Shown in pieces: positions 19,549-30,322 of a stretch of 46,309 bases of DNA. The stretch lies in the NCBI GenBank assembly GCA_027309555.1, contig DAIDCO010000010.1:1-46309 (forward strand). Direction: 5' to 3'. The notes beneath the pieces were generated by a model that made no database searches, was not told where the DNA came from, and saw only the letters and a list, made by a program, of their open reading frames with translations. The stretch comes from a bacterium (GTDB lineage Archaea; Thermoplasmatota; Thermoplasmata; Lutacidiplasmatales; UBA184). Both the position numbers and the translations under genes were made by a program. How positions within the stretch are numbered: position 1 is the stretch's first letter; every line of letters starts with the position of its first letter.

Positions 19549-19621
19549 GCCACTGTAGCTCAGCTGGCAGAGCGGCTGATTCGTAATCAGCAGGTCGGGG
19601 GTTCAAGTCCCTCCAGTGGCT
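19549..19621 (+). tRNA. tRNA-Thr (CGU)
   Basis: 73 bases fold as a cloverleaf: acceptor stem GCCACTG with CAGTGGC, D arm, anticodon stem GCUGA/UCAGC around loop UUCGUAA (anticodon CGU, reading ACG), and a T arm with GTTCAAG. Discriminator base is U, no intron, CCA not encoded. The remains of a tyrosine recombinase begin within 30 bases of the 3' end, so this tRNA is the likely integration site of the island that follows. Confidence 0.95.
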
Positions 19622-19647
19622 TTGGTCCAAGGGTTCGTATCCGTTGA

Positions 19648-20907
19648 CGTTCCTCTCTCGGAGCGATCGGAGTCGCCCCGGCGGAACCGGTAACCGACAA
19701 TCGCCGGGTTGACATCCACGACGCGCTCGGGCAGATCGCTCACGCCGAAGCCCGTCTTCGTTCCCGCGATCCTGATGTCCCGCCCGAGACCGTCCGCACC
19801 ATCCTCGAGTTCGTCGAGGCCCGTCGCGCGGCCGTCTCCGCGCAGAGGGTGGTCCCCTACCTCTGGAACCTCCACGGAGCAGCGAAGAAGCTCGGCCCGG
19901 ACCTTCTCGAACCGAACCGGGACCCGCCAACGAAGTTCCTCCGACTCTACCGCGACAAAGAGGTCTGGACCCAGATCACCGTCCGCTCGGTCCTCTACTC
20001 GTTCTGGAAGTGGCGGTTCGACCGCAAGGGGAAGGACTTCCCCCGGTGGCTCAAGATTTCGGTCCCCGCACGAGGCGCACGTCGGAGCGACCGCAACGAC
20101 GTGCTGACACCGGAAGAGGTCGCGCGGATCGCCGAACACGCGATCAACCTGCGGGACCAGGCACTCGTCTGGGTCCTCTACGAGAGCGGAGGTCGCATCG
20201 GGGAGGTACTGGCCCCTCGGATCGGGGACGTCGAGCGGACCGAGTACGGAGCGGTCCGACTCTACTTCCCCACGGGGAAGACCGGACGCCGAACCGTCCC
20301 TCTCTTCGAACTGGCGGTCCCGAACCTGCTCCTCTGGCTCAAGAACCATGCGAGAGCCGATGACCGAAACGCTCCGCTCTGGGTTTCGGTCGAGCAGGCG
20401 AACCCGAGCGGTACCGGGATCGGCTACCGCTATGTCGTCATGCTGCTCGAGAGGTCGGCCACTCGGGCTGGGGTCAAGAATCCGGCGAACCCCCACAGCT
20501 TCCGTCACTCCCGGGCTACGGCGGTCGCGCAGAATCCCCGGGTCTCGACCTCCGTACTCGAGAAGTTCTTCGGCTGGCAACCCGGGTCCCCGATGGCGAA
20601 GACGTACGTCCACCTCTCGGGAAAGGAAGTCTAAGACGCCCTCGCCCGAGCTCACGGAATCGAGATTGGGAAGGTCGAGAGTCCCAGGGCGAAGCTCCCG
20701 CGAGTTTGCGCCCGCTGCTCGACCTCGAACGATGCCGACGGCAAGTTCGCCGTCCAGTGCCGAGGGCCGCTGACGCTCGAGGGTGCGGAGGAGCGAGTGC
20801 GGTGGAAGATGGAAGAGGACCGTCTCGCGGACCTTCTCGACGATCCGAGGATACGCGCATTCATCGCGCAAAGGATGCGAGCCCGGCTCGCTCGAGCAGC
20901 CGTTTAG
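19648..20907 (+). pseudogene. Decayed tyrosine recombinase / archaeal integrase
   Basis: One reading frame of 419 sense codons, broken by one stop, encodes a tyrosine recombinase. The core-binding domain (TVRTILEFVEARRAAV, VVPYLWNLHGAAKKLG) precedes the catalytic domain with Arg in GGRIGEV, HSFRHSR and the nucleophilic Tyr at 20605-20607 (AKTYVHLSG). No ATG, GTG or TTG lies in frame between the upstream stop (19645-19647) and GTG 19849, which is inside the core-binding domain. TAA at 20632-20634 ends the frame after HLSGKEV, but the usual archaeal continuation follows in the same frame (DALARAHGIE, then a zinc module CARC...QCRG with one Cys lost) up to TAG 20905. The 261-aa part from 19849 could still be made, without the N-terminal helix and the zinc domain. 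Confidence 0.8.
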
Positions 20908-21317
20908 AACCGGCCCCCTCACATTCGAATCCTTCGTCGAAAGAAAACCCGTTTCAGAAAGAGGAACAATGAACCCCGGGGCGCCTCGCGGGCTCGTGCG
21001 TCAAACCGAGTCGAGCGATTTCGGGGGGGCTTACACAAGCCTCGGGCAACAAATCGGTCAGCCAAGCTGAGGGAGGGTCCGGGCCGTACGCAAGGCGCCG
21101 GTTTCAAGCGAATCGGGGTCTATCTCGTTCCCCGTCGGCTCCCGAGCTTGGTCGGTCAGCGGGAACAGCCTGTGCGTCAGGGATCGGAACGATTCACAGC
21201 TCTGAACCCACCGACATCGGGAGGGTAATTCGTACGCCTAACCCCCGCCGTGAATGGCCATGTTCTGCAGCCCCAAGGCTCAAATACCACGTGACGGGAT
21301 TTTGATGGTCGAGGCCG
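20908..21317. other. Intergenic stretch, no gene supported
   Basis: About 410 bases between the integrase remnant and the next gene, less GC-rich than the core. A 33-codon frame from ATG 20969 has no recognisable product. CAAATACC at 21281-21288 could be the TATA box of the next gene. I see no second copy of the tRNA-Thr 3' end here. Confidence 0.5.
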
Positions 21318-21971
21318 TTGGTGCGCAGAGACCGCCACACCACCCACCCTATTCCTCCGACAAGAGAATGGGATGCCCCGTTGTGGGCGTGGGTCGTGGC
21401 ACTCACCACATTGATGCTCCTCACTTCGTTGCCAGCGATCGATGCCGGCGGCCACCTCGCCCGCATCCAACCGACAGTCGCAGATGCCAGGCAATCAACC
21501 GAATTCTCGCCGTTGGCCCCTCCGCTAAAGGTCCAGCTTGTCGCGAGCCCGTCGACCCTGAACCTCGGGAACGTGACGGGTCTGAATGCGCTCATCTCGG
21601 GAGGAGTCCCTTGGTTCAGCTTCGTGTGGGGCCTCTTACCGACCGGATGTAAGAGCTCCAACCAGTCGAGTTTGAATTGCACTCCCACCGCGGCCGGAAC
21701 GTTTACCGTCAGCGTCACGGTGACCGACAGTATCGGGAAGAGCGACACTAACTCAACCACGCTCGTGGTCAAGGGGAGCCAACCCATGGTCAGTGGTTCT
21801 CCCCTCTCCCTCGGGTCGATCTATGTGTTCGCCGGATTGTTGGGGATAGCAGCATCTGTCGTGACCGCTCTCGTGATCACCATGCTCTTCCGTCGAAGAC
21901 GTAGGCAACCCCCCATGGTCACGAGATTCAACCACCCGTACATTCCGCCCACATCCGAGGAGAACCCATAG
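21318..21971 (+). CDS. Surface protein with PKD/Ig-like domain and two membrane segments
   Basis: A 217-aa predicted surface protein. Residues about 22-42 form an N-terminal membrane segment or signal, about 68-150 a beta-rich Ig/PKD-like domain (SPSTLNLGNVTGL, LNCTPTAAGTFTVSVTVTDS, a phrase common in archaeal secreted PKD proteins), about 163-187 a second membrane helix followed by RRRRRQ. Several N-x-S/T sites could be glycosylated. The layout suggests a domain held outside the cell by two helices. The start is TTG 21318 or GTG 21321, both weak, chosen because a TATA-like box sits 30 bases upstream. Cargo of the tRNA-linked island. Function unknown. Confidence 0.7.
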   Translation: MVRRDRHTTHPIPPTREWDAPLWAWVVALTTLMLLTSLPAIDAGGHLARIQPTVADARQSTEFSPLAPPLKVQLVASPSTLNLGNVTGLNALISGGVPWFSFVWGLLPTGCKSSNQSSLNCTPTAAGTFTVSVTVTDSIGKSDTNSTTLVVKGSQPMVSGSPLSLGSIYVFAGLLGIAASVVTALVITMLFRRRRRQPPMVTRFNHPYIPPTSEENP

Positions 21972-22551
21972 CGGCCGCGGGGATCGTTGCCCGTAGCACC
22001 GAATTGATCGGACGCTGATCCGGCTCGGCTCCGCCAATCGTCGCTTGACCCCCAAGAGGACCGCGCGGAGCTCCGTCGACTTACTCGAGGAGACGGGTTT
22101 CCTTCCGAAGAAGCCGTGGCGATTCTACTCTCGGGTATCCGTCTTATGCTACCAGGAGGGGTCGATGGAACCGGTGCCGTGGTCGAACAGAACAGTCCAG
22201 ACGATTTCGGCGACGAGATTCCTGCGATCTATATCCTCTGGTCGCTCTCGGTAGCCGATTCGTCTAACCATGGAACGGGGGCGCATCCGGGAATCCGGTG
22301 GGTCCTCGAGTAGCGAGGCTACGCGGGAGATCCTCGAGAGGCCCGTGCGGAATGCCGACGCGCTCACCCGTCCCTCCTGGTCGAATCCTCTGACGAGGAC
22401 TCAAGGGCGAGGCAGGCGACGCTCGAGACTCCGGATGACCGGTTGGGGACGCCGAAACTACCCACCCAAACGTCGGAAGACCCGGAATGGGTTGGCCGGC
22501 AGGATACCGTGGGGGCCCGCCGGCGGGGGTCCGGGATTCCCGGTAGCCAAT
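21972..22551. other. Intergenic stretch, no gene supported
   Basis: About 580 bases between the convergent surface-protein and beta-helix genes. Two short plus-strand frames (22045-22254 and 22116-22313) show no domain, no promoter and no codon bias I trust. It may contain decayed sequence. Confidence 0.45.
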
Positions 22552-23661
22552 TCAGCAGGTCTCCACCGAGACGGGCGCGCTCCCGTCGAGGTCGATGATC
22601 ATGGTGTTCGTCTCGTCGCACAGCCAGACGCCGATGGCATCGTGGTTGACCGAATTGTCCTGCAAGGTGGTGTTCGCGAGTATCGGGGCATTGGCCTCGC
22701 CGGGGGCCGCTTCCGCCACCACTTCGATACCGGTAGGCACTGTCGGGTCGTTCGGGGGCCCTTCGAACCCGTTGTTGCCGATCATGTTGTGGGCAAAGGT
22801 GTTATTCCAGACCCGGTCCCCGGGGGCGTTGCTGTGGACCACGATCCCCGGGATGATGCTCCTGTAGATGTGGTTGCCCACGACCGCGTTGTCCCAGACC
22901 CACGTGCCGGGGGTGTCCGCCGCGACCACGATTCCCCCAACGAATGGGCCCGTTCCCGGGGCGCTTCCGACCACGAGATTGTCCCCTACGATATTGGCAC
23001 CTACCCCCGCTCCCGCGTCGTAGGCGGCCAGAACGATCCCGCATCCGAAGGAGTCATTCACGATCATGTTGTCCATGATCACATTCCCGATGGCGGGATG
23101 CAAGGCACCGGGCGCGAGCGCCGCAGGGTCGAACGCTCCGTCGTCGGAGACTCCGATCCCACCGTCGGCCATGTTGTTCAGGACGAGGTTGTCGCGCACG
23201 ATGACACCCGTCGTCCCGGTAAGCTGGATGGCCTTGTCCTCGGCGATGCAGGGAGGAGCTCCGCACGTGTGTGGAGCGAGTCCGTTGTGCACGACCGTGT
23301 CCCCAAGAACTTTCACTCCCATCGTGTCTTGAACAAAGATCCCGTGGTCATTGGCGTTCTTCACCGTAGCGCCGACAATGTCGACGTTCGTCACACCGGG
23401 GCCAACGTATATTCCGACATCGCAGCCCTGGGCATTGATGTATCCGCTGATCCACTGATGAGAGTGGGCGACGACGTTCGCCGTCAATCCAGTAGTCCCT
23501 GCGGGAACGCACACCGGATCCCCTCCGGTCGCTCCAACGCTCCGCGACGCCGCGGAGCCCGCCGTGAGCGGCACCAAGAAGGCCGCCACCGCAAGGAACA
23601 GGGCAACTCCGACCGCCAGTTCTCGAGTCTTTCTTCGCGTCCCGGTTCGCTTCCTTCGCAT
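22552..23661 (-). CDS. Secreted right-handed beta-helix protein (PbH1/NosD-like repeats)
   Basis: A 369-aa secreted protein. The Arg-rich N terminus followed by a hydrophobic stretch (about residues 17-36) is a signal peptide or anchor. From about residue 85 to 345 there are repeats of the parallel beta-helix type: strings such as NVDIVGATVKNANDHGIFVQD, GVIVRDNLVLNNMADGGIGV and VIMDNMIVNDSFGCGIVL, with the N-x-I/V pattern of pectate-lyase-like and NosD folds. Such proteins bind or cut polysaccharides, or serve as surface adhesins. Without catalytic residues that I can place, the role is open. It ends with a Cys as its last residue. The start at 23661 (MRRKRTG) gives the proper signal peptide. 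A frame upstream to 23697 is less likely. Confidence 0.8.
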   Translation of the reverse strand: MRRKRTGTRRKTRELAVGVALFLAVAAFLVPLTAGSAASRSVGATGGDPVCVPAGTTGLTANVVAHSHQWISGYINAQGCDVGIYVGPGVTNVDIVGATVKNANDHGIFVQDTMGVKVLGDTVVHNGLAPHTCGAPPCIAEDKAIQLTGTTGVIVRDNLVLNNMADGGIGVSDDGAFDPAALAPGALHPAIGNVIMDNMIVNDSFGCGIVLAAYDAGAGVGANIVGDNLVVGSAPGTGPFVGGIVVAADTPGTWVWDNAVVGNHIYRSIIPGIVVHSNAPGDRVWNNTFAHNMIGNNGFEGPPNDPTVPTGIEVVAEAAPGEANAPILANTTLQDNSVNHDAIGVWLCDETNTMIIDLDGSAPVSVETC

Positions 23662-23808
23662 GTTCCCCCCCCGCACTCCGGGACCGGCTAGGACCAAGGG
23701 GTAGGGCAGGCGGAACCGCGCGCCCGACTACTTGGCCATCGTCGGACACCGGGTGCCTTTCATCGGATGTGGTCGAGCGTCTTAAACGTGCCGTTATTCC
23801 CGGGTCGT

Positions 23809-23837
23809 GTGATGTGCCGTAAGTAGTTGCTCTCGGC
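23809..23837. repeat. Left inverted repeat of the insertion sequence
   Basis: Matches the complement of 24834-24862 at 20 of 29 positions, ending in the shared TTGCnCTCGG block. Confidence 0.6.
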
Positions 23838-23861
23838 GTCGTGAGCCCAGGTGGCCGTGTT

Positions 23862-24817
23862 TCATCGGTGCACCTGGTCCTCGGGATAGGCGGTCAGGTG
23901 GTCCGCTCGGTCCTTCGGGGTGAGCTTCCTTACGAAGCCGTGGAGGGGTGTCTCGGCGCGCTCGAAGTTCAGGCTGAGGTGGGGTTTGTCCTCGTTATAC
24001 CACGCCACGAGCTCCTCGAGCGTGTCGAACAGCGCCTCTCCGTCCGGCCAGTTGGCTCGCAGCTTCGACTTTAGGGTCCTGAAGACTGGCTCCACCTTCC
24101 CGGCCGTCAGAGGATGTTTCACCCGCTCCAGAATGTGCTGCATGCGGATCCCTTTCCGCCGCTGGAGTTCCCGCAGCTTCCGATCGAAGTGGGCGAGCTG
24201 GCCCTACTGGACCTTCGTGAACTGGGTCCGATGGTCGGTGAGGATCTGCTTGGAGAACCCGTAGCGACGGCCCGCAGTCTCGAAGGTCGTCCACGCGACC
24301 TCGGCGGTCGCCGTGGGCGTTCGGGCCCATCTCACGATCAATCGGGACGCATCGTCGAGGATCACGAGAAGGTAATCGCCCGACGGATCTCCGAGCGGTC
24401 CATCTGCCCGAGGGAGTTCGAATGCCTCCGCTCGAAGCGGACCCACTTGCGGCGGTGCAGCTTCTTCGGAGAGTCGACCACGAGCCTGGCTCGCTTGAAG
24501 GTCGCCCAGAGGCGATTATGGGCATTAGACACACGGTATTCCTCCTCCTCGAGCAGCCGCTCGAGGGCGAGGGGAAGGAGGCGGTGGTGCCGCTCGGCGG
24601 CGAGGATCAGCTCGGCCTCGTCTGGGTCCCGGGGCTTCGGGGGTCGGACGAGGTGTCGGTCCCCGTGTAACGGGAGACTGAGCGTCGCCGGACGGCGGAT
24701 CTCCCGGATCCACTCGGGAGTCACTCTATGGACGCGAGCGATGTGGTAGATGGAGCAGCGGTGTCGGGCCGACTCCCGGAGGATCCCGTGCACTTCGGCT
24801 CGAGAAAGCTTCCTCAC
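23862..24817 (-). pseudogene. Broken DDE transposase of the IS481-like element
   Basis: The likely start is GTG 24817 (RKLSRAEVHGILRES), a helix-turn-helix N-terminal part. The integrase core follows: NSLGQMD holds the first Asp. A one-base frameshift near 24375-24385 moves the frame into GDYLLVILDDASRLIV. An in-frame TAG at 24204-24206 stops it after TDHRTQFTKVQ, where the second Asp (TDH) is present. The rest continues in the same frame after the stop (RMQHILERVKHPLTAGKVEPVF, with the last Glu) to 23862. The C-terminal part resembles IS481-type proteins that act in a single frame. It cannot make full-length protein. Confidence 0.8.
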
Positions 24818-24833
24818 CCCGAGCGCTCTGTCT

Positions 24834-24862
24834 TCCGAGGGCAAGTAATTTCGGGATACTAC
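24834..24862. repeat. Right inverted repeat of the insertion sequence
   Basis: Partner of 23809-23837. With one base added on each side both tips read TGT inward, defining 23808-24863 as the element. Confidence 0.6.
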
Positions 24863-24990
24863 AAGCGCGGAGACCCCCCGCGAGTGGAAGGAGCGCGAGT
24901 GGTGCCGGCAGGAACCCAAACATCCGCAGATCGGCGCTACCGGTGGGGTTCGAGGGCCGGATCAGAACGGCCTGCATCCGGTTCCCGTCC

Positions 24991-26808
24991 TCAGCCGGCG
25001 GACTCTTCCGCGGAGTCCGTGGCCGGCGGGTCGGCCGGGCTCACGCGCGCCTCGATCGTAGCGGGCGCGTCAGTCCTTCGTGGAGCATCGCCCTGGTCCT
25101 CGTGGAGGTACCGATCCCCGCGAAGGTAGGAGATTCCCGCCCCCACGAGCGTAATGACGCCAGCGAAGAGGAAGGCTCCTCGAAGACCGTCGATGAACGC
25201 CGGGGCAATCGCGTTGGGGAAGAAACTCTGGGACGTCAGCTGGGCGGCGATCGCGGGCGTAATCTGGCCGGGGTCCCATCCGGGCACCGACGAGGCGAAC
25301 GTCAAGAGAGTGCCGACCGGGTTGTATCCGAGGAAGGCGGCGAACAACGATTCGGTCGGATTCGCCTGAGCGAGATTGGCCAGGATCGGGCCGTCGGGCG
25401 CACCGACCCCGAGACCGCCCAGCGCGGCCGTGACCGAGCCCGCCAGCCCGGACGCCAGACCGCCAATCACGATGGTGAAGAAGAAGACGAGTGACAGTTG
25501 TTGACCCGTGTTCTGCAGCGTGGCGAGCATCCCCGAAGAGGCGCCGCGGTGGCGGGCCGGGACGGAATTCATGACCGCAGCCGCATTCGGGGCGGCGAAC
25601 ATACCCATCCCGCCCCCCTGGACGAACAGGAGCCCGCCGACCACCGGGTAGCTGAAATTGTACGGAACCAGCAGGAACACGAAGAACGTGACCCCCGCGA
25701 CCACCATCCCCAGCGTGGCCAGGGTTCGGGCCCCCCACCGATCGGACAGCCAACCGCTCAGCGGTCCGAACACGAAGAAACCTCCCAGCAGGGGGATCAT
25801 ATAGACTCCCGACCAAAACGGAGTGCTGGCGAAGGAGTACCCGTGCAGGGGGAGCCAGATTCCTTGGAACCAGATGATCAAGAGGAGCATCATCCCACCC
25901 CGCGCGAGCGATCCCAGGAATGCCGAGGTCACCCCCGCCGAGAACGCCCGGTGGCGGAACAGGGCGAGTCGGAACATCGGCTGGGCTACGCGTCCCTCGA
26001 CGAACAGGAACACGGTCAGGAGGACCACGCCCAGCACGATCGCCGTCCACACGTAGGGATTCTGCCACCCGAGCGAGGAGCCGCCGTACGGCAGCAGCGT
26101 GTAGGTAAGTCCCACGAGCAGGAGGGTGAGGCCGCCCGCGAACAGCGCGTTGCCGGGGATGTCGAGTCGCTCGTCCTTCTGGGGCGGCCGTAGGTCGTGG
26201 AGTCGGTAATACGCCCAAACGGTGCCGAAGACACCCACGGGCAGGTTCACGATGAAGATGAGGCGCCAGGTGGGAATCGTCAGGGCACCCAAATGTAGGT
26301 CCGGGATTCCCGCGAGGATACCACCGATGATGAGCCCGAGCAACGAGCCCCCAATGAAGGCGACCTGGTTGATCCCGAGCGCCTTCCCGCGTTCTTCCGG
26401 AGGAAAGGCATCGGTGAGCAACGCCGCCGAATTGGCAAAGAGAAACGCCGCTCCGACTGCTTGGACCAGTCGGAACCCGACGAGTTCCCAGGCGCCGGTC
26501 GTGCCCATGCTCGGGGTGAAGAACAACAGCACGGAGCCAAGGGTGAAGATCGCGAACCCCAGGTTGTAGACGCGCGCACGCCCGTAGATGTCGGCGAGGC
26601 GGCCGGCGTTGACCAATAACACGGCCGTGACGACTCCGTAGCCGAGGAGCAGCCAGATCAGGATCTCGAAGCTCGATGCGTTGAACGGGTTCACGTTCAG
26701 GCCACGGAAGATAACAGGGATGGAGATCAACAGGATCGTCCCGTTGATCGATGCCATGAGGGCGCCGATCGTCGTGTTCGATAGGACGACCCACTTGTAC
26801 GCGACCAT
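24991..26808 (-). CDS. Major facilitator superfamily efflux transporter, DHA2 (14-helix) type
   Basis: A 605-aa drug:proton antiporter-like protein of the EmrB/QacA group. About 14 hydrophobic helices can be read. DIYGRARVYNLG is the motif A loop after helix 2, and VGFRLVQAVGAAFLFA and IFIVNLPVGVFG are DHA2 motifs. The C-terminal 50 residues are hydrophilic. It probably exports a hydrophobic or aromatic compound. The start at 26808 (MVAYKWVV) lies 16 bases after the MarR stop. The frame is open upstream only as a shadow of that gene. It is co-transcribed with marR, which most likely regulates it. Confidence 0.9.
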   Translation of the reverse strand: MVAYKWVVLSNTTIGALMASINGTILLISIPVIFRGLNVNPFNASSFEILIWLLLGYGVVTAVLLVNAGRLADIYGRARVYNLGFAIFTLGSVLLFFTPSMGTTGAWELVGFRLVQAVGAAFLFANSAALLTDAFPPEERGKALGINQVAFIGGSLLGLIIGGILAGIPDLHLGALTIPTWRLIFIVNLPVGVFGTVWAYYRLHDLRPPQKDERLDIPGNALFAGGLTLLLVGLTYTLLPYGGSSLGWQNPYVWTAIVLGVVLLTVFLFVEGRVAQPMFRLALFRHRAFSAGVTSAFLGSLARGGMMLLLIIWFQGIWLPLHGYSFASTPFWSGVYMIPLLGGFFVFGPLSGWLSDRWGARTLATLGMVVAGVTFFVFLLVPYNFSYPVVGGLLFVQGGGMGMFAAPNAAAVMNSVPARHRGASSGMLATLQNTGQQLSLVFFFTIVIGGLASGLAGSVTAALGGLGVGAPDGPILANLAQANPTESLFAAFLGYNPVGTLLTFASSVPGWDPGQITPAIAAQLTSQSFFPNAIAPAFIDGLRGAFLFAGVITLVGAGISYLRGDRYLHEDQGDAPRRTDAPATIEARVSPADPPATDSAEESAG

Positions 26809-26824
26809 GACCCGTACGGGACCC

Positions 26825-27310
26825 TCAGGCGTCCTCCGACATTCCCAACGCCAGACGAAGCTCCATGACTCCCCGGAGGAGCCCCTGGCGTGCAGGAGGA
26901 GAGATCTTGACGCCGAGGTCCCGGAGCGCCTTTCTCTGGCCTTCCATGGCCTGGCGGAGCAGTCGGTGGCCCGGCACCGTGAGGATGGCAAGACGCGAAC
27001 GTCGATCGGTGGGGTGGGGAGCGAGTCGGATCAGACCCCTACCGGCCAGACGGCGCGCCAAATCCGTAGTGGCTGCGGGGGTTACACCGAGGGCCTGGGT
27101 GATGGACTTCAGGGGGGTGGGACCCCGCGAACATAGCGTTAGCCCGTAGTACTCGGAGAGAAGGAGCCCGTGAGGGTTGAGGGCCTCCTGGGTCACGCCG
27201 CGAAGAATCCGATAGAGCTCACGGACCGAGTCCCACGGGGGCTCCACCGACCCCGTCGCCCGGGCCGCTCCTCCCTCCCGTCGGCGGGAATCGGCGGGAG
27301 GCGTCCCCAT
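26825..27310 (-). CDS. MarR-family transcriptional regulator
   Basis: A 161-aa winged-helix regulator of the MarR family. Such proteins are dimers that bind palindromes and let go when a phenolic or oxidising ligand binds. The core reads LLLSEYYGLTLCSRGPTPLKSITQALGVTPAATTDLARRLAGRG (helices, with the recognition helix at TPAATTDLARRL), followed by the wing LIRLAPHPTDRRSRLAIL. The DRR of the wing is highly typical. The start at 27310 fits a TATA box at 27334-27339. A perfect palindrome touches that box, so the gene probably represses its own operon, which includes the transporter. Confidence 0.9.
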   Translation of the reverse strand: MGTPPADSRRREGGAARATGSVEPPWDSVRELYRILRGVTQEALNPHGLLLSEYYGLTLCSRGPTPLKSITQALGVTPAATTDLARRLAGRGLIRLAPHPTDRRSRLAILTVPGHRLLRQAMEGQRKALRDLGVKISPPARQGLLRGVMELRLALGMSEDA

Positions 27311-27333
27311 GGGAGGCAACCATACTTGGGAGG

Positions 27334-27339
27334 ATATTA
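27334..27339 (-). promoter_or_regulatory. TATA box for marR and the transporter
   Basis: TAATAT on the minus strand, 24-29 bases before the ATG at 27310, so the mRNA should be leaderless. Confidence 0.55.
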
Positions 27340-27349
27340 AGACGTCTTA
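27338..27349. promoter_or_regulatory. Palindromic operator, likely bound by the MarR protein
   Basis: TAAGACGTCTTA is a perfect 12-bp palindrome that overlaps the upstream edge of the TATA box, where the TFB recognition element should be. A bound MarR dimer would block TBP/TFB. I read it as an autoregulatory operator. Confidence 0.55.
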
Positions 27350-27384
27350 CCTCGGGCTGGGGGCGACGGGAGCCCGGCCGACAC

Positions 27385-27828
27385 TCAGGCGTATCGGACG
27401 ACAAGGACCGGGCACGGCGCGTGGTGGACTACGGCGTCCGAAACGCTACCGAGGAAGAGTCGCGCTGTCGTGGAGAGTCCTCGGGAGCCCAAGACCAGGA
27501 GGTCCATCGGGCGGGTCTCGAGGTACGTCACGATGGCATCCGACACGTGGCCCTCGAGTCGAACGGTGACCACGTCGTGCGCCCCGGCCTCCTCGGCCTT
27601 TCGCTTCGCCCGCGCGAGCAATTCCTCGTGGAGGGGCGTGACGTCGACCGGGGCCGAGCCGGGAGCGAGGGGAGAGAGGATCATCGTGGAGGGGAGAGGG
27701 ACGACCGAGATCAGCACGAGCGACGCGCCGTAACGGCGGGCGAGGTTGATCGCAAGTTCCAGGGCGCGCTCGGCGTGGCCCGAGCCATCGAGCGCGACAG
27801 CGATCCGAGTCAAGTCGGCCCCGTTCAT
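27385..27828 (-). CDS. Universal stress protein (UspA family)
   Basis: A 147-aa UspA-fold protein. It starts with RIAVALDGSGHAERALELAI and ends with DLLVLGSRGLSTTARLFLGS followed by VSDAVVHHAPCPVLVV, the ATP-binding motif G-x2-G-x9-G-S. Members bind ATP or AMP and help cells survive stress by means that vary. The start at 27828 gives the normal length. It is divergent from a dienelactone hydrolase gene, with an inverted repeat between them. Confidence 0.92.
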   Translation of the reverse strand: MNGADLTRIAVALDGSGHAERALELAINLARRYGASLVLISVVPLPSTMILSPLAPGSAPVDVTPLHEELLARAKRKAEEAGAHDVVTVRLEGHVSDAIVTYLETRPMDLLVLGSRGLSTTARLFLGSVSDAVVHHAPCPVLVVRYA

Positions 27829-27849
27829 CGGAGGTTACCTAGGAGGGGA

Positions 27850-27874
27850 ACGTCCCTCGAACCGGAAGGGACGT
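27850..27874. promoter_or_regulatory. Inverted repeat between uspA and the dienelactone hydrolase gene
   Basis: ACGTCCCT and AGGGACGT, perfect 8-base arms around a 9-base spacer, centred in the 103-base divergent intergenic region. It may be an operator for one or both genes. A transcribed hairpin is the alternative. Confidence 0.45.
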
Positions 27875-27931
27875 GGGTTCTAATACGTCACCTTAACAGT
27901 TTTCAAGGCCCGGCGGTTAGGGCAGGAGGCG

Positions 27932-28756
27932 ATGACCGAGGCGACTCGCGGGGAGATGGTGAAGTTGCCGGGGAAGGGCCGGGAACTCGACGCCGCTTTG
28001 ATAACCCCGGGGGTCGACGAGCGACGGCCCGCGATAGTCGTGGTTCACGAGATCTGGGGCCTGGATGCCCACATACGGAATGTGGCGGGTCGGTTCGCAG
28101 CCCAGGGGTACGTGACCCTCGCCCCCGACCTCTACATCGGAGAACTACGAGCGGCGATGACTTCCGACAACATCCAGGCCGGCATGGCGTTCTTGCGACA
28201 GGCGCCGCCCGAAGTGCAGCGCGACCCTTCGAAGATCGGTCCGTTGCTGGCCCAGCGGACCCCGTCCGAGCAGGAGGCGTTGCGGACGCTCCTCCGCGTG
28301 ATGAGCCCGGGCCAGCAGCGGCAGTTCGCCGAGGACCTTGTCGAAGCCTGCCGCTACCTTCGGACCCGGCAGGAGGTCGACCCCACGCGGATCGGAGGCG
28401 TGGGGTTCTGCATGGGGGGCGGGTTAGTAGGCCTCCTGGCCACCCTGGACCCGGAACTGAGAGCGGCAGTGGTGTTCTATGGTGCCAACCCTCCCTTGGA
28501 GAGCGTACCGAACATCCGGGCGTCGGTCCTGGGGTTGTACGGGGGCGAGGATCACCGGGTCACGGACACGGTACCGGAGTTCGAGGAAGCGATGCGGAAG
28601 GCGGGCCGGAGGTTCGCCCGGCACATCTATCCGGGCGCCCCGCACGCCTTCTTCAACGACACCCGACCTCAGGTCTATCGGCCGGCATCGGCCGAGGATG
28701 CATGGACTCGCGTCCTCGACTTCTTCGGCCGTGAGCTGGGTCGGCCCTCCCCGTGA
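27932..28756 (+). CDS. Dienelactone hydrolase family protein
   Basis: A 274-aa alpha/beta hydrolase of the dienelactone hydrolase family, which opens lactone rings in aromatic breakdown, and is often broader in substrate. HEIWGL has the family's Glu, GFCMGGG the nucleophilic Cys160, and YGGEDHRV (Asp) and GAPHAFFND (His) complete the triad. A short insertion at about residues 70-130 (ERQ-rich, with LRQAPPEVQRDPSK) is longer than in the bacterial prototype. It sits with efflux transporters and a MarR regulator, which fits turnover of aromatic compounds, but the substrate is not known. Confidence 0.9.
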   Translation: MTEATRGEMVKLPGKGRELDAALITPGVDERRPAIVVVHEIWGLDAHIRNVAGRFAAQGYVTLAPDLYIGELRAAMTSDNIQAGMAFLRQAPPEVQRDPSKIGPLLAQRTPSEQEALRTLLRVMSPGQQRQFAEDLVEACRYLRTRQEVDPTRIGGVGFCMGGGLVGLLATLDPELRAAVVFYGANPPLESVPNIRASVLGLYGGEDHRVTDTVPEFEEAMRKAGRRFARHIYPGAPHAFFNDTRPQVYRPASAEDAWTRVLDFFGRELGRPSP

Positions 28757-28846
28757 GACCATGCGCGCCTTCTCAGCCCGAGAGAGGCGGCGCGATCTAT
28801 CGACCGTCGCCCCGACCACCGGGTAAGGGAGCTCCGCAGGCGCTTC

Positions 28847-30322
28847 ATGGCCGCCTCATCGCCTCGATGGGTCCTCTTTGTCGTCGTCCTCGGGACTCTG
28901 ATGGCGTCCGTGGACACCACGATCGTCCTGCTCGCTTTCCCGACGATCGCGGGAGACCTGCACGCCGGGCTCGATGCGGTGATCTGGACGATCCTCATCT
29001 ATCTCCTCTTGACGTCGATCCTGACCACTCAGATGGGTCGGATCGGCGACCTGTACGGACGGAGCCGGTTCTACAACCTGGGGTTCGTCATCTTCACGAT
29101 CGGGTCGGCTCTCTGCGGCTTCGCACCGACGGCGACCAGCCTCGTGGGGTTCCGGGCGATCCAGGCGGTTGGAGGAGCGTTCCTGTTGGCGACGGGGACG
29201 GCCATCATCTCCGAGCACTTTCCGCCCGCGACCCGCGGTCGAGCCTTCGGTTTCACTACGATGGGGTGGAACGTGGGGGCGACCCTCGGGATCGTGCTCG
29301 GCGGAGTCCTGACGACGTTTGTCGGTTGGCGCTACATCTTCTTCATCAACATCCCGATCGGAGTGGTGGCCGTAGCCCTGGGCCTGCGGTATCTGGGCCC
29401 GAGCGTCCGGAGCAAGGCCCGTCTCGACCTGGTCGGCATGGTGCTGCTCGCGGCGGCGATGTCGCTCATCACCTACGGGGCGACCGACTTCGCGTCGTAC
29501 GGAGCCGACCCATGGAACGTGACTCTGACCGCCCTGGGGGGCGGACTCGTCCTCCCCTTCGTTCTCTGGGAGCAGCGCGCGAAGTCTCCGACGCTCGACC
29601 TGATGCTCTTCCGTTCCCGCCTCTTGTCGACCTCGCTCGCCGCCTCCTTCTTCCAGAGCCTGGGATACCTTTCCGTCGTCTTTCTCCTGATCATGTATCT
29701 GCAGGGGATCCGCGGCCTCTCGCCGCTCTACGCCTCCCTGCTACTCGTCCCGGGATACGTCCTTTCTTCCGGCCTCGCCCCGGCCGCCGGTCGCTGGGCC
29801 GATCGTTGGGGGGCGTGGCGGTTCGCGACTCTCGGGATCGGCCTCATGATCGTCGGCGTTCTGCTCTACGCCCAGCTGACGCTGACCACCCCCCTGGTCG
29901 TGGTCGCGGTGATCTCCCTCGTGACCGGCATTGGCGGCGCACTCTTCTGGCCGTCCAACAACAAGGCGGTGATGGCCGATGCTCCTCCGGCGCACTACGG
30001 CTCGGTGTCGGGCCTTCTACGGACGCTTTCGAACTCGGGAACGATCGGAAGCTACGTGCTCGTGATCACCCTCGCCGCAGTGGCCGTTCCCCGCTACGTC
30101 GCCTTCCGAGTGTTCGTGGGCGCGGGAGGGCTGATCGGGGACGTCTCGATCACGTTCCTCGGGGCGCTCCACCTCGCCTTCTACGCGATGGCGGTGATCC
30201 TCGCGGTAGCGGCGGCGTTCTCCGCGTTGCGCCGACCCCGGCCGAGTGAAATGGCCGGGAGGGGGTCCGAACTCGCCGCGCTCCCACCCTCCGCCGACCC
30301 TCCTGGCCCGCGGTCGAAGTAG
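28847..30322 (+). CDS. Major facilitator superfamily efflux transporter, DHA2 type (second copy)
   Basis: A 491-aa, 14-helix MFS transporter related to but shorter than the one at 24991-26808. It opens with WVLFVVVLGTLMASVDTTIV, the family-specific D1 motif, and has GRIGDLYGRSRFYNLGF (motif A) and RYIFFINIPIGVVAVALGL (motif C region). GGAGCTCC is a possible ribosome site before ATG 28847. It follows the dienelactone hydrolase by 90 bases and may be in the same operon. Substrate unknown, probably an organic toxin. Multiple DHA2 pumps near one MarR suggest coordinated detoxification. Confidence 0.9.
   Translation: MAASSPRWVLFVVVLGTLMASVDTTIVLLAFPTIAGDLHAGLDAVIWTILIYLLLTSILTTQMGRIGDLYGRSRFYNLGFVIFTIGSALCGFAPTATSLVGFRAIQAVGGAFLLATGTAIISEHFPPATRGRAFGFTTMGWNVGATLGIVLGGVLTTFVGWRYIFFINIPIGVVAVALGLRYLGPSVRSKARLDLVGMVLLAAAMSLITYGATDFASYGADPWNVTLTALGGGLVLPFVLWEQRAKSPTLDLMLFRSRLLSTSLAASFFQSLGYLSVVFLLIMYLQGIRGLSPLYASLLLVPGYVLSSGLAPAAGRWADRWGAWRFATLGIGLMIVGVLLYAQLTLTTPLVVVAVISLVTGIGGALFWPSNNKAVMADAPPAHYGSVSGLLRTLSNSGTIGSYVLVITLAAVAVPRYVAFRVFVGAGGLIGDVSITFLGALHLAFYAMAVILAVAAAFSALRRPRPSEMAGRGSELAALPPSADPPGPRSK

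Follow-up and report, generated by a model that had tools for sequence, protein, structure and literature searches.

The archaeal tyrosine integrases closest to the one described here are those of the classical kind (type II, pNOB8/SNJ2-like), which are reviewed in PMC8371274, where 17 families are distinguished. In that review, the suicidal SSV-type integrases are marked by the domain PF16795 and by a KxxR box. For KplE1 intS and other tRNA-linked integrases, the promoter overlaps attL (PMC2951348), and elements integrated in tRNA genes are described for Thaumarchaeota (PMC6563490). Passages of these three papers and of PMC12302457 were the literature used for comparison.

The stretch of DNA analyzed here (the window) is a whole contig of 46,309 bases; the genome to which it belongs (2.04 Mb, 114 contigs) is 90% complete. 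The contig runs 26.7 kb past a tRNA-Thr(CGT) gene and then ends. The features at the tRNA were mapped as follows.

19549-19621, + strand: tRNA-Thr (CGT), the attachment gene, its 3' end being the left att core (ARAGORN; Rfam RF00005, 69.4 bits)
19631-19642, + strand: GGGTTCGTATCC, a near copy of the T-arm (10 of 12 matches to GGGTTCAAATCC), 9 nt past the tRNA; a proposed integrase-binding arm
19645-19647, + strand: in-frame TGA between the tRNA and the start position
19666-19668, + strand: start-codon position of the family, here ATC (in the alignment, ATG in most relatives and GTG in G031 and G029)
19666-20631, + strand: tyrosine recombinase with N-terminal, core-binding and catalytic parts (PF00589, E=1e-15; phrog_1, 2.8e-21)
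20632-20634, + strand: TAA, an in-frame nonsense codon where relatives have a sense codon
20635-20904, + strand: in-frame remainder with the zinc-ribbon tail; an Ala codon (20749-20751) at the position of the third Cys

With good confidence, we take this feature to be attL, the left end of an integrative island that is anchored to a tRNA gene of a Thermoplasmata archaeon and carries its own recently inactivated, classical (non-partitioned) tyrosine integrase. The right end of the island is either lost or past the end of the contig. What is seen bears out decay but lends no support to partition, and the integrase family and its att system are delimited in relatives rather than in the window itself.

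The protein belongs to the tyrosine recombinase/integrase family (PF00589). Its catalytic set of R, K, H-x-x-R, W and Y is complete (first bases of the codons: R 20194, K 20278, H 20494, R 20503, W 20575 and Y 20605), these being the residues with catalytic roles in the family. It does not belong with the chromosomal XerA proteins, since it scored 63.7 bits against the cut-off of 220 for NCBIfam NF040815. Structure prediction for one open relative was too weak to build on (mean pLDDT 70.3, pTM 0.40). The integrase frame is open from 19648 to 20631, is interrupted by the TAA nine codons past the catalytic Tyr, and continues in the same frame through 20635-20904 to a TAG at 20905-20907. The tail beyond the TAA reads C-x2-C ... 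A-x2-C, while four Cys are invariant in all nine open relatives aligned (in one of them, G031, the contig ends once the Cys motif is complete). The first in-frame ATG, GTG or TTG is a GTG at 19849, with none before codon 62. Since a canonical start codon, a tail Cys and, through the TAA, the tail itself are lost, the integrase of the window should no longer work. A sequence-only reading of this DNA had proposed a tRNA-Thr-linked integrase in decay, with an intact catalytic core, no in-frame start codon, a TAA between the catalytic domain and the zinc-ribbon tail, a missing Cys in that tail and an otherwise preserved frame, and all of this was borne out. Its further claim of a loss at the 5' end was not, as the start position of the family is present at 19666-19668 and simply reads ATC.

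Initiation at ATC 19666 is possible as far as the sequence goes, and a frame that starts there or at GTG 19849 and ends at the TAA could in principle encode an active, tail-less recombinase. Such a functional short form would fit the complete catalytic set, which is present up to and beyond the Tyr, the low dN/dS described below, and the occurrence of the ATC allele at two loci, by which it may predate the parting of the copies. We consider it unlikely, however, because the tail with its four Cys is kept in every open relative aligned, what remains of the tail in the window has a Cys loss of its own, and use of GTG 19849 would drop 61 residues that relatives retain. An error of assembly or sequencing that made the stop or removed the start also has to be weighed, given that the TAA is known from one assembled metagenome sequence and the locus comes from a single MAG. 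This is very improbable, since ATC is found on two contigs, and the Ala codon and the TAA both arise by substitution within the frame, which is open everywhere else.

Named loci with homologues of the integrase come from Thermoplasmata archaeon MAGs (12 of 13) and a Euryarchaeota archaeon MAG (1 of 13). Start positions were compared in 11 members, namely the window and the ten of these 13 loci that have a tRNA called upstream. An ATG or GTG lies 42 to 45 nt past the tRNA 3' end in 10 of the 11, and the window has its ATC at +45. For G033, G067, G013 and G079:C42, the start was taken as the first ATG between +38 and +50, where alignments put the same context, and was confirmed to be in frame for G033 and G067. 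The spacing is kept at tRNA-Thr(CGT), Thr(GGT), Gly(CCC), Cys(GCA) and Leu(CAG) genes. G029, for which ARAGORN called no tRNA, has a tRNA-like 3' end with a GTG at a similar distance, and no tRNA was seen beside the G025 and G075:C13 integrases. Six of the 11 members (the window, G033, G067, G078, G026 and G071) have an in-frame stop between the tRNA and the start, while in the remaining five it continues without a stop into the tRNA. The integrase frame of G031 (L083 9509-11080) even crosses the whole tRNA gene and extends past it, with 524 codons in all, and its start aligns at a GTG at +42. A VHI triplet upstream of the start is rejected as conserved protein sequence because stops interrupt that frame in the six members.

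These start positions bear directly on the mechanism that the sequence-only reading had put forward, in which the att site lies inside the gene, the 5' end is cut off at integration as in suicidal SSV-type elements, and mutation follows. That explanation would account for the lack of a canonical in-frame start, for the integrase abutting the tRNA 3' end and for the N-terminal fragment elsewhere in the genome, and the frame of G031, open right through the tRNA, is in its favor. The 5' end in the window is nevertheless complete and aligns with the starts of open relatives. Where a stop separates the tRNA from the start, the ORF cannot span the att core derived from the tRNA, so that in the window's own subclade the att core lies outside the ORF and nothing was cut off its 5' end. 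An att core inside the ORF was therefore not found, a result that is decisive for the six members with a stop and not for the five in which the frame is open into the tRNA. PF16795 is absent from the window integrase, PF00589 being its sole match at E<=0.1, and the KxxR box is replaced by HSFR in the window and by YALR in the sister clade. Together, the stops before the start, HxxR in place of KxxR and the absence of PF16795 speak against the suicidal SSV type, and we regard partition as extremely unlikely. Decay of a classical archaeal integrase, with att outside the ORF and the gene left whole, agrees with what was found: relatives are whole beside the tRNA and the window copy is broken by point changes.

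The N-terminal fragment that the sequence-only reading had suggested looking for does exist in the same genome, but it duplicates the N-terminus in the window and does not complement it. On contig C41, a tRNA-Thr(GGT) is followed by 229 bp that correspond to the spacer and codons 1-61 of the window with four differences, ATC being kept; past this point the sequence is different. Over codons 1-61, the protein is identical in the two copies, so that none of the residues missing under partition would be supplied by it. The ATC allele is therefore either older than the copying or was passed on by gene conversion. Further along C41, at 6.7 kb, lies a second tRNA 3' end.

Remnants that keep the 5' part only were also found in G022:C8, G067:C8, G067:C72 (at a tRNA-Cys), G072:C60, G073:C4 (at a tRNA-Gly) and G075:C2 (no tRNA call), and end at about +190 to +590 in the six measured. 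With C41, this makes seven 5'-only remnants, against no sure 3'-only remnant (G080:C4 is a possible case). Such a bias would result if the side next to the tRNA were protected, and equally if end sequences were kept because they are needed. A recombination hotspot at codons 61-68 was considered when C41 and G022 first seemed to share an end point. It was ruled out by comparison with the best-scoring full-length relatives, where G022 ends at about +240 and C41 at +229, and the others at about +190, +240, +335 and +590. The remnant ends shift with the scoring scheme and the reference, G072 ending at +141 or +190 and the G067 remnant at tRNA-Cys being given by the looser scheme only. On one contig, G067:C72 (L071/L072), a full-length but broken integrase at tRNA-Thr(GGT) and a 5' remnant at tRNA-Cys(GCA) form a divergent pair of loci separated by 26 kb.

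Substitution patterns were used to date the damage. Pairwise Nei-Gojobori dN/dS, which averages over both branches, was 0.088 and 0.103 for the core (225 codons) of the window against G033 and G067, respectively, 0.148 and 0.189 for the tail after the TAA, and 0.200 and 0.172 for the N-terminal 60 codons. The G033-G067 pair gave 0.077 for the core, 0.149 for the tail and 0.193 for the N-terminal part, values similar enough to those of the window that no marked relaxation is indicated. Against G031, the core value of the window, 0.305, was a little higher than those of G033 (0.237) and G067 (0.243), a point that tells against our assignment, with dS near 1 and close to saturation. A core dN/dS near 0.09 implies that the breaks are recent, the frame having stayed open because of purifying selection until recently. 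The G033 and G067 integrases are themselves frame-shifted, at different places. We conclude that the integrase was constrained for most of the divergence and was lost recently and more than once.

A search of 78 genomes gave 38 match places, of which 14 with the catalytic part alone (model positions 141-348) were left out as other recombinases. The strongest match left out, G080:C4 (89.5 bits, an open frame of 365 codons and no tRNA in the 4.5 kb examined), could instead be a 3'-only relative. Disruption is common in the family: eight copies are open (G029, G025, G026, G065, G075:C13, G078, G071:C40 and G079:C54) and six are disrupted (the window, G033, G067, G079:C42, G013 and G071:C13). The G031 copy is open as far as its contig reaches, and G088:C27, likewise truncated by the end of its contig, was left out of this count. 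A tree of 14 proteins has two clades (the G013 copy, with its three stops, was omitted, as were the N-terminal frames of G033 and G067), with tRNA-Thr used in both and support inside the larger clade partly weak. The box motif is HxxR in the clade of the window and YxxR in the sister clade, which is found at Gly, Leu, Cys and one Thr tRNA.

Right ends were recognized in relatives by a second tRNA 3' end, which lies 31.3 kb past the tRNA in G033, 6.7 kb past it in G000:C41 and 3.2 kb past it in G072; a weaker one, with three mismatches, is found at 49.6 kb in G078. The second tRNA 3' ends found carry an upstream motif that contains TGAAC, the right end reading TTTGAACCC(T/A)TAG or similar. A pattern drawn from three G033 sites matched 16 sites in 11 of the 78 genomes, so that 13 sites in 10 genomes are new, and the reversed pattern matched none. 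Thirteen of the 16 have a tRNA-Thr upstream on the same contig and strand, at 0.65 to 7.3 kb in 12 cases and at 31.3 kb in one; the other three have no tRNA in the stretch examined. Tandem pairs of right-end sites occur at two tRNAs (G033:C3 and G088:C61). The motif sites are mostly without a family integrase: tblastn of 12 short intervals and C41 with six family sequences gave a match in the C41 remnant only, recombinases of other families being judged solely by reading the ORF list. An empty site was found for one pair of close relatives. In G073, tRNA-Thr(GGT) runs directly into the host flank, while in G072 the site is occupied by a 3.18-kb insert followed by a second tRNA 3' end and then a G073-like flank (92.9% over 1525 bp). 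The end of this insert nearest to the tRNA is a 5' integrase remnant. Comparison of right flanks with all loci gave this empty site for 1 of 17, and none for the window.

The second copy of the tRNA 3' end anticipated by the sequence-only reading was thus present in C41 and some relatives and was not found in the window. No right-hand att site was detected in the 26.7 kb after the window tRNA, nor any second tRNA 3' end of the CGT type elsewhere in the 90%-complete genome, which counts against the island reading. Four weak matches to the last 13 bases of the tRNA are present in the window (10389, 23521, 24555 and 38676), one with one mismatch, which lies upstream of the tRNA, and three with two mismatches. 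In total, 13-base matches are above the chance mean of 1.57, a count of five being reached in 2 of 100 shuffles, and the att motif is absent at the two of the four that were looked at. With a weight matrix built from 17 Thr-type sites, no score exceeded 8 either in the window or in any of five mononucleotide shuffles, and most other integrase loci searched gave no right end. The matrix fails to recover the G078 site, which is outside the 17 training sites because its spacing differs by one base, and therefore speaks for Thr-type sites only. No right end was found within about 10 kb in 11 other integrase loci, and searches of G026 and G013, both genome-wide, and of G067 gave no second tRNA 3' end beyond tRNA copies; G065 (on another contig) and G022 each have a single match with three mismatches.

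One candidate boundary was suggested by G062, in which an MFS gene (L106/L161) with about 87% DNA identity over 127 bp to window 28847-30322 lies close after tRNA-Thr(CGT), as if window 19622-28846 were extra there. An island of 19622-28846 is not claimed, since just 127 bp are aligned and no att site is near 28.8 kb. In G071:C28 (L159:101-170) and G022:C1 (L160 beside 6872, - strand), a different and near-identical sequence, TAGGTCAAAGTTCATCG..., directly follows tRNA-Thr(CGT) and is perhaps another type of island.

The islands delimited in relatives vary in size and content. In three of them (G095, G101 and G033:C3), the whole island measures 647 to 742 bp. A protein of about 110 amino acids (LESIEEADTEFLALPPE...) was found by tblastn in seven of 13 island intervals (G016 L199, G003 L200, G012 L205, G088:C61a L198, G095 L203, G101 L206 and G033:C3a L178), always near the right end and with 77 to 100% identity to the G016 copy. 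It has no Pfam match, recalls RelE/HigB-like toxins, and is possibly a directionality factor or a maintenance gene. The G016, G003 and G093:C33 islands (L199, L200 and L201) share a related cyclase-like protein of about 640 amino acids, at 46 to 48% identity to that of G016, whose N-terminal 400 amino acids match guanylate cyclase. Shared genes and a right-end motif without a family integrase are what trans-mobilized units would be expected to look like, although loss of the integrase in place would look alike. Past its integrase, the window encodes a PKD-domain ORF, MFS, MarR and Usp proteins and others, with nothing detectable in common with the G033 and G078 islands (ORFs of at least 90 amino acids, 2.5 kb of the G033 island excluded). 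Of 10 ORFs scanned among the 27 in the G033 island, two match DDE transposases (one just under the cut-off) and seven match nothing; matches for 10 of the 49 in the G078 island include a DNA methylase, GmrSD and metabolic families, and none of these 20 ORFs was recognized as a virus hallmark or structural gene. Four viral contigs encode homologues of the integrase at 28 to 34%. Free relatives, which the sequence-only reading had proposed for comparison, did not appear: there was no match of at least 60% identity for the G065 protein in plasmids (64 records) or phages (8 records), or for the window protein in phages (15 records).

In 17 family loci, a near copy of the T-arm sequence GGGTTCAAATCC lies at +6 to +9 from the tRNA, with 7 to 11 matches of 12 (median 9); these loci include the window, C41 and remnants and are not independent. 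Flanks of 27 tRNA-Thr(CGT) genes without an integrase match scored 5 to 7 of 12, and shuffled family spacers scored 8 or more in 296 of 3,400 cases. The right-end TTTGAACCC is the inverse of the T-arm copy. We read the T-arm copies as putative integrase-binding arms. At about 28 nt upstream of the start codon, the left copy, which reads TTCATATC in many members, could also serve a leaderless promoter as its TATA-like element, either in addition to being an arm or in place of it. In the mechanism we envisage, the integrase, bound to inverted T-arm-like arms, would carry out recombination between the chromosomal tRNA gene and the tRNA 3' end carried by attP, and integration would restore the tRNA and leave int as the first gene inside.

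Tentatively, and with more doubt than conviction, we propose a broader model in which this archaeal integrase family finds tRNA genes through the universal T-arm (the internal promoter box B), the T-arm mimics serving as inverted arms, TTTGAACCC on the right and GGGTTCATATCC on the left. Related enzymes could then switch among the tRNAs for Thr, Gly, Cys, Leu and others; islands reduced to their ends, down to 650-bp units with one conserved small gene, would be moved in trans; and tRNA-Thr genes would be docking points shared across the genus. If the T-arm copies are recognition arms, they would explain in a simple way how a tRNA integrase can acquire a new target. In the relatives, both ends of the island and an empty site are defined, as is often not the case for uncultured archaea. 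The islands can now be mapped from sequence in many Thermoplasmata genomes, and one can ask if a single integrase acts for many islands that lack their own. As for the window copy, it is an ordinary casualty.

A classical tRNA integrase is a known kind. Weak evidence suggests that the family is new. No description of the family, or of T-arm copies as integrase arms, was found in the titles and abstract openings covered, a body of literature outside which most subscription papers fall. The family resembles the classical archaeal integrases, as given in PMC8371274, in that the gene stays whole on integration, the tRNA 3' end serves as att and the domain is PF00589, as well as in the YxxR box, here in the sister clade only. 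It differs from that description in the start fixed 42 to 45 nt from the tRNA, the adjoining T-arm copy, the C-terminal zinc ribbon and, in the clade of the window, HxxR. The nearest annotated viral homologues, at 34 to 35% over 70% of the window protein, are in the pleolipoviruses GacPV1 and ThalV2 (BK065156 and BK065158), in which the integrase is the first annotated gene, although these are circular records whose start may be an arbitrary choice; unlike them, the G033 and G078 islands have no virus structural gene among the ORFs scanned. Integration at tRNA 3' ends with varied cargo, in some cases without virus hallmarks, is shared with the Thaumarchaeota elements, which are of a different phylum and for which integrase-less islands with one common att motif are not described in the excerpt of PMC6563490. 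As in KplE1 intS (PMC2951348), the integrase is the first gene inside attL and is transcribed away from the tRNA, so that its promoter must lie in or beside att. KplE1 intS is bacterial, whereas the spacer in the present family measures about 45 nt and its promoter may be of the leaderless archaeal type.
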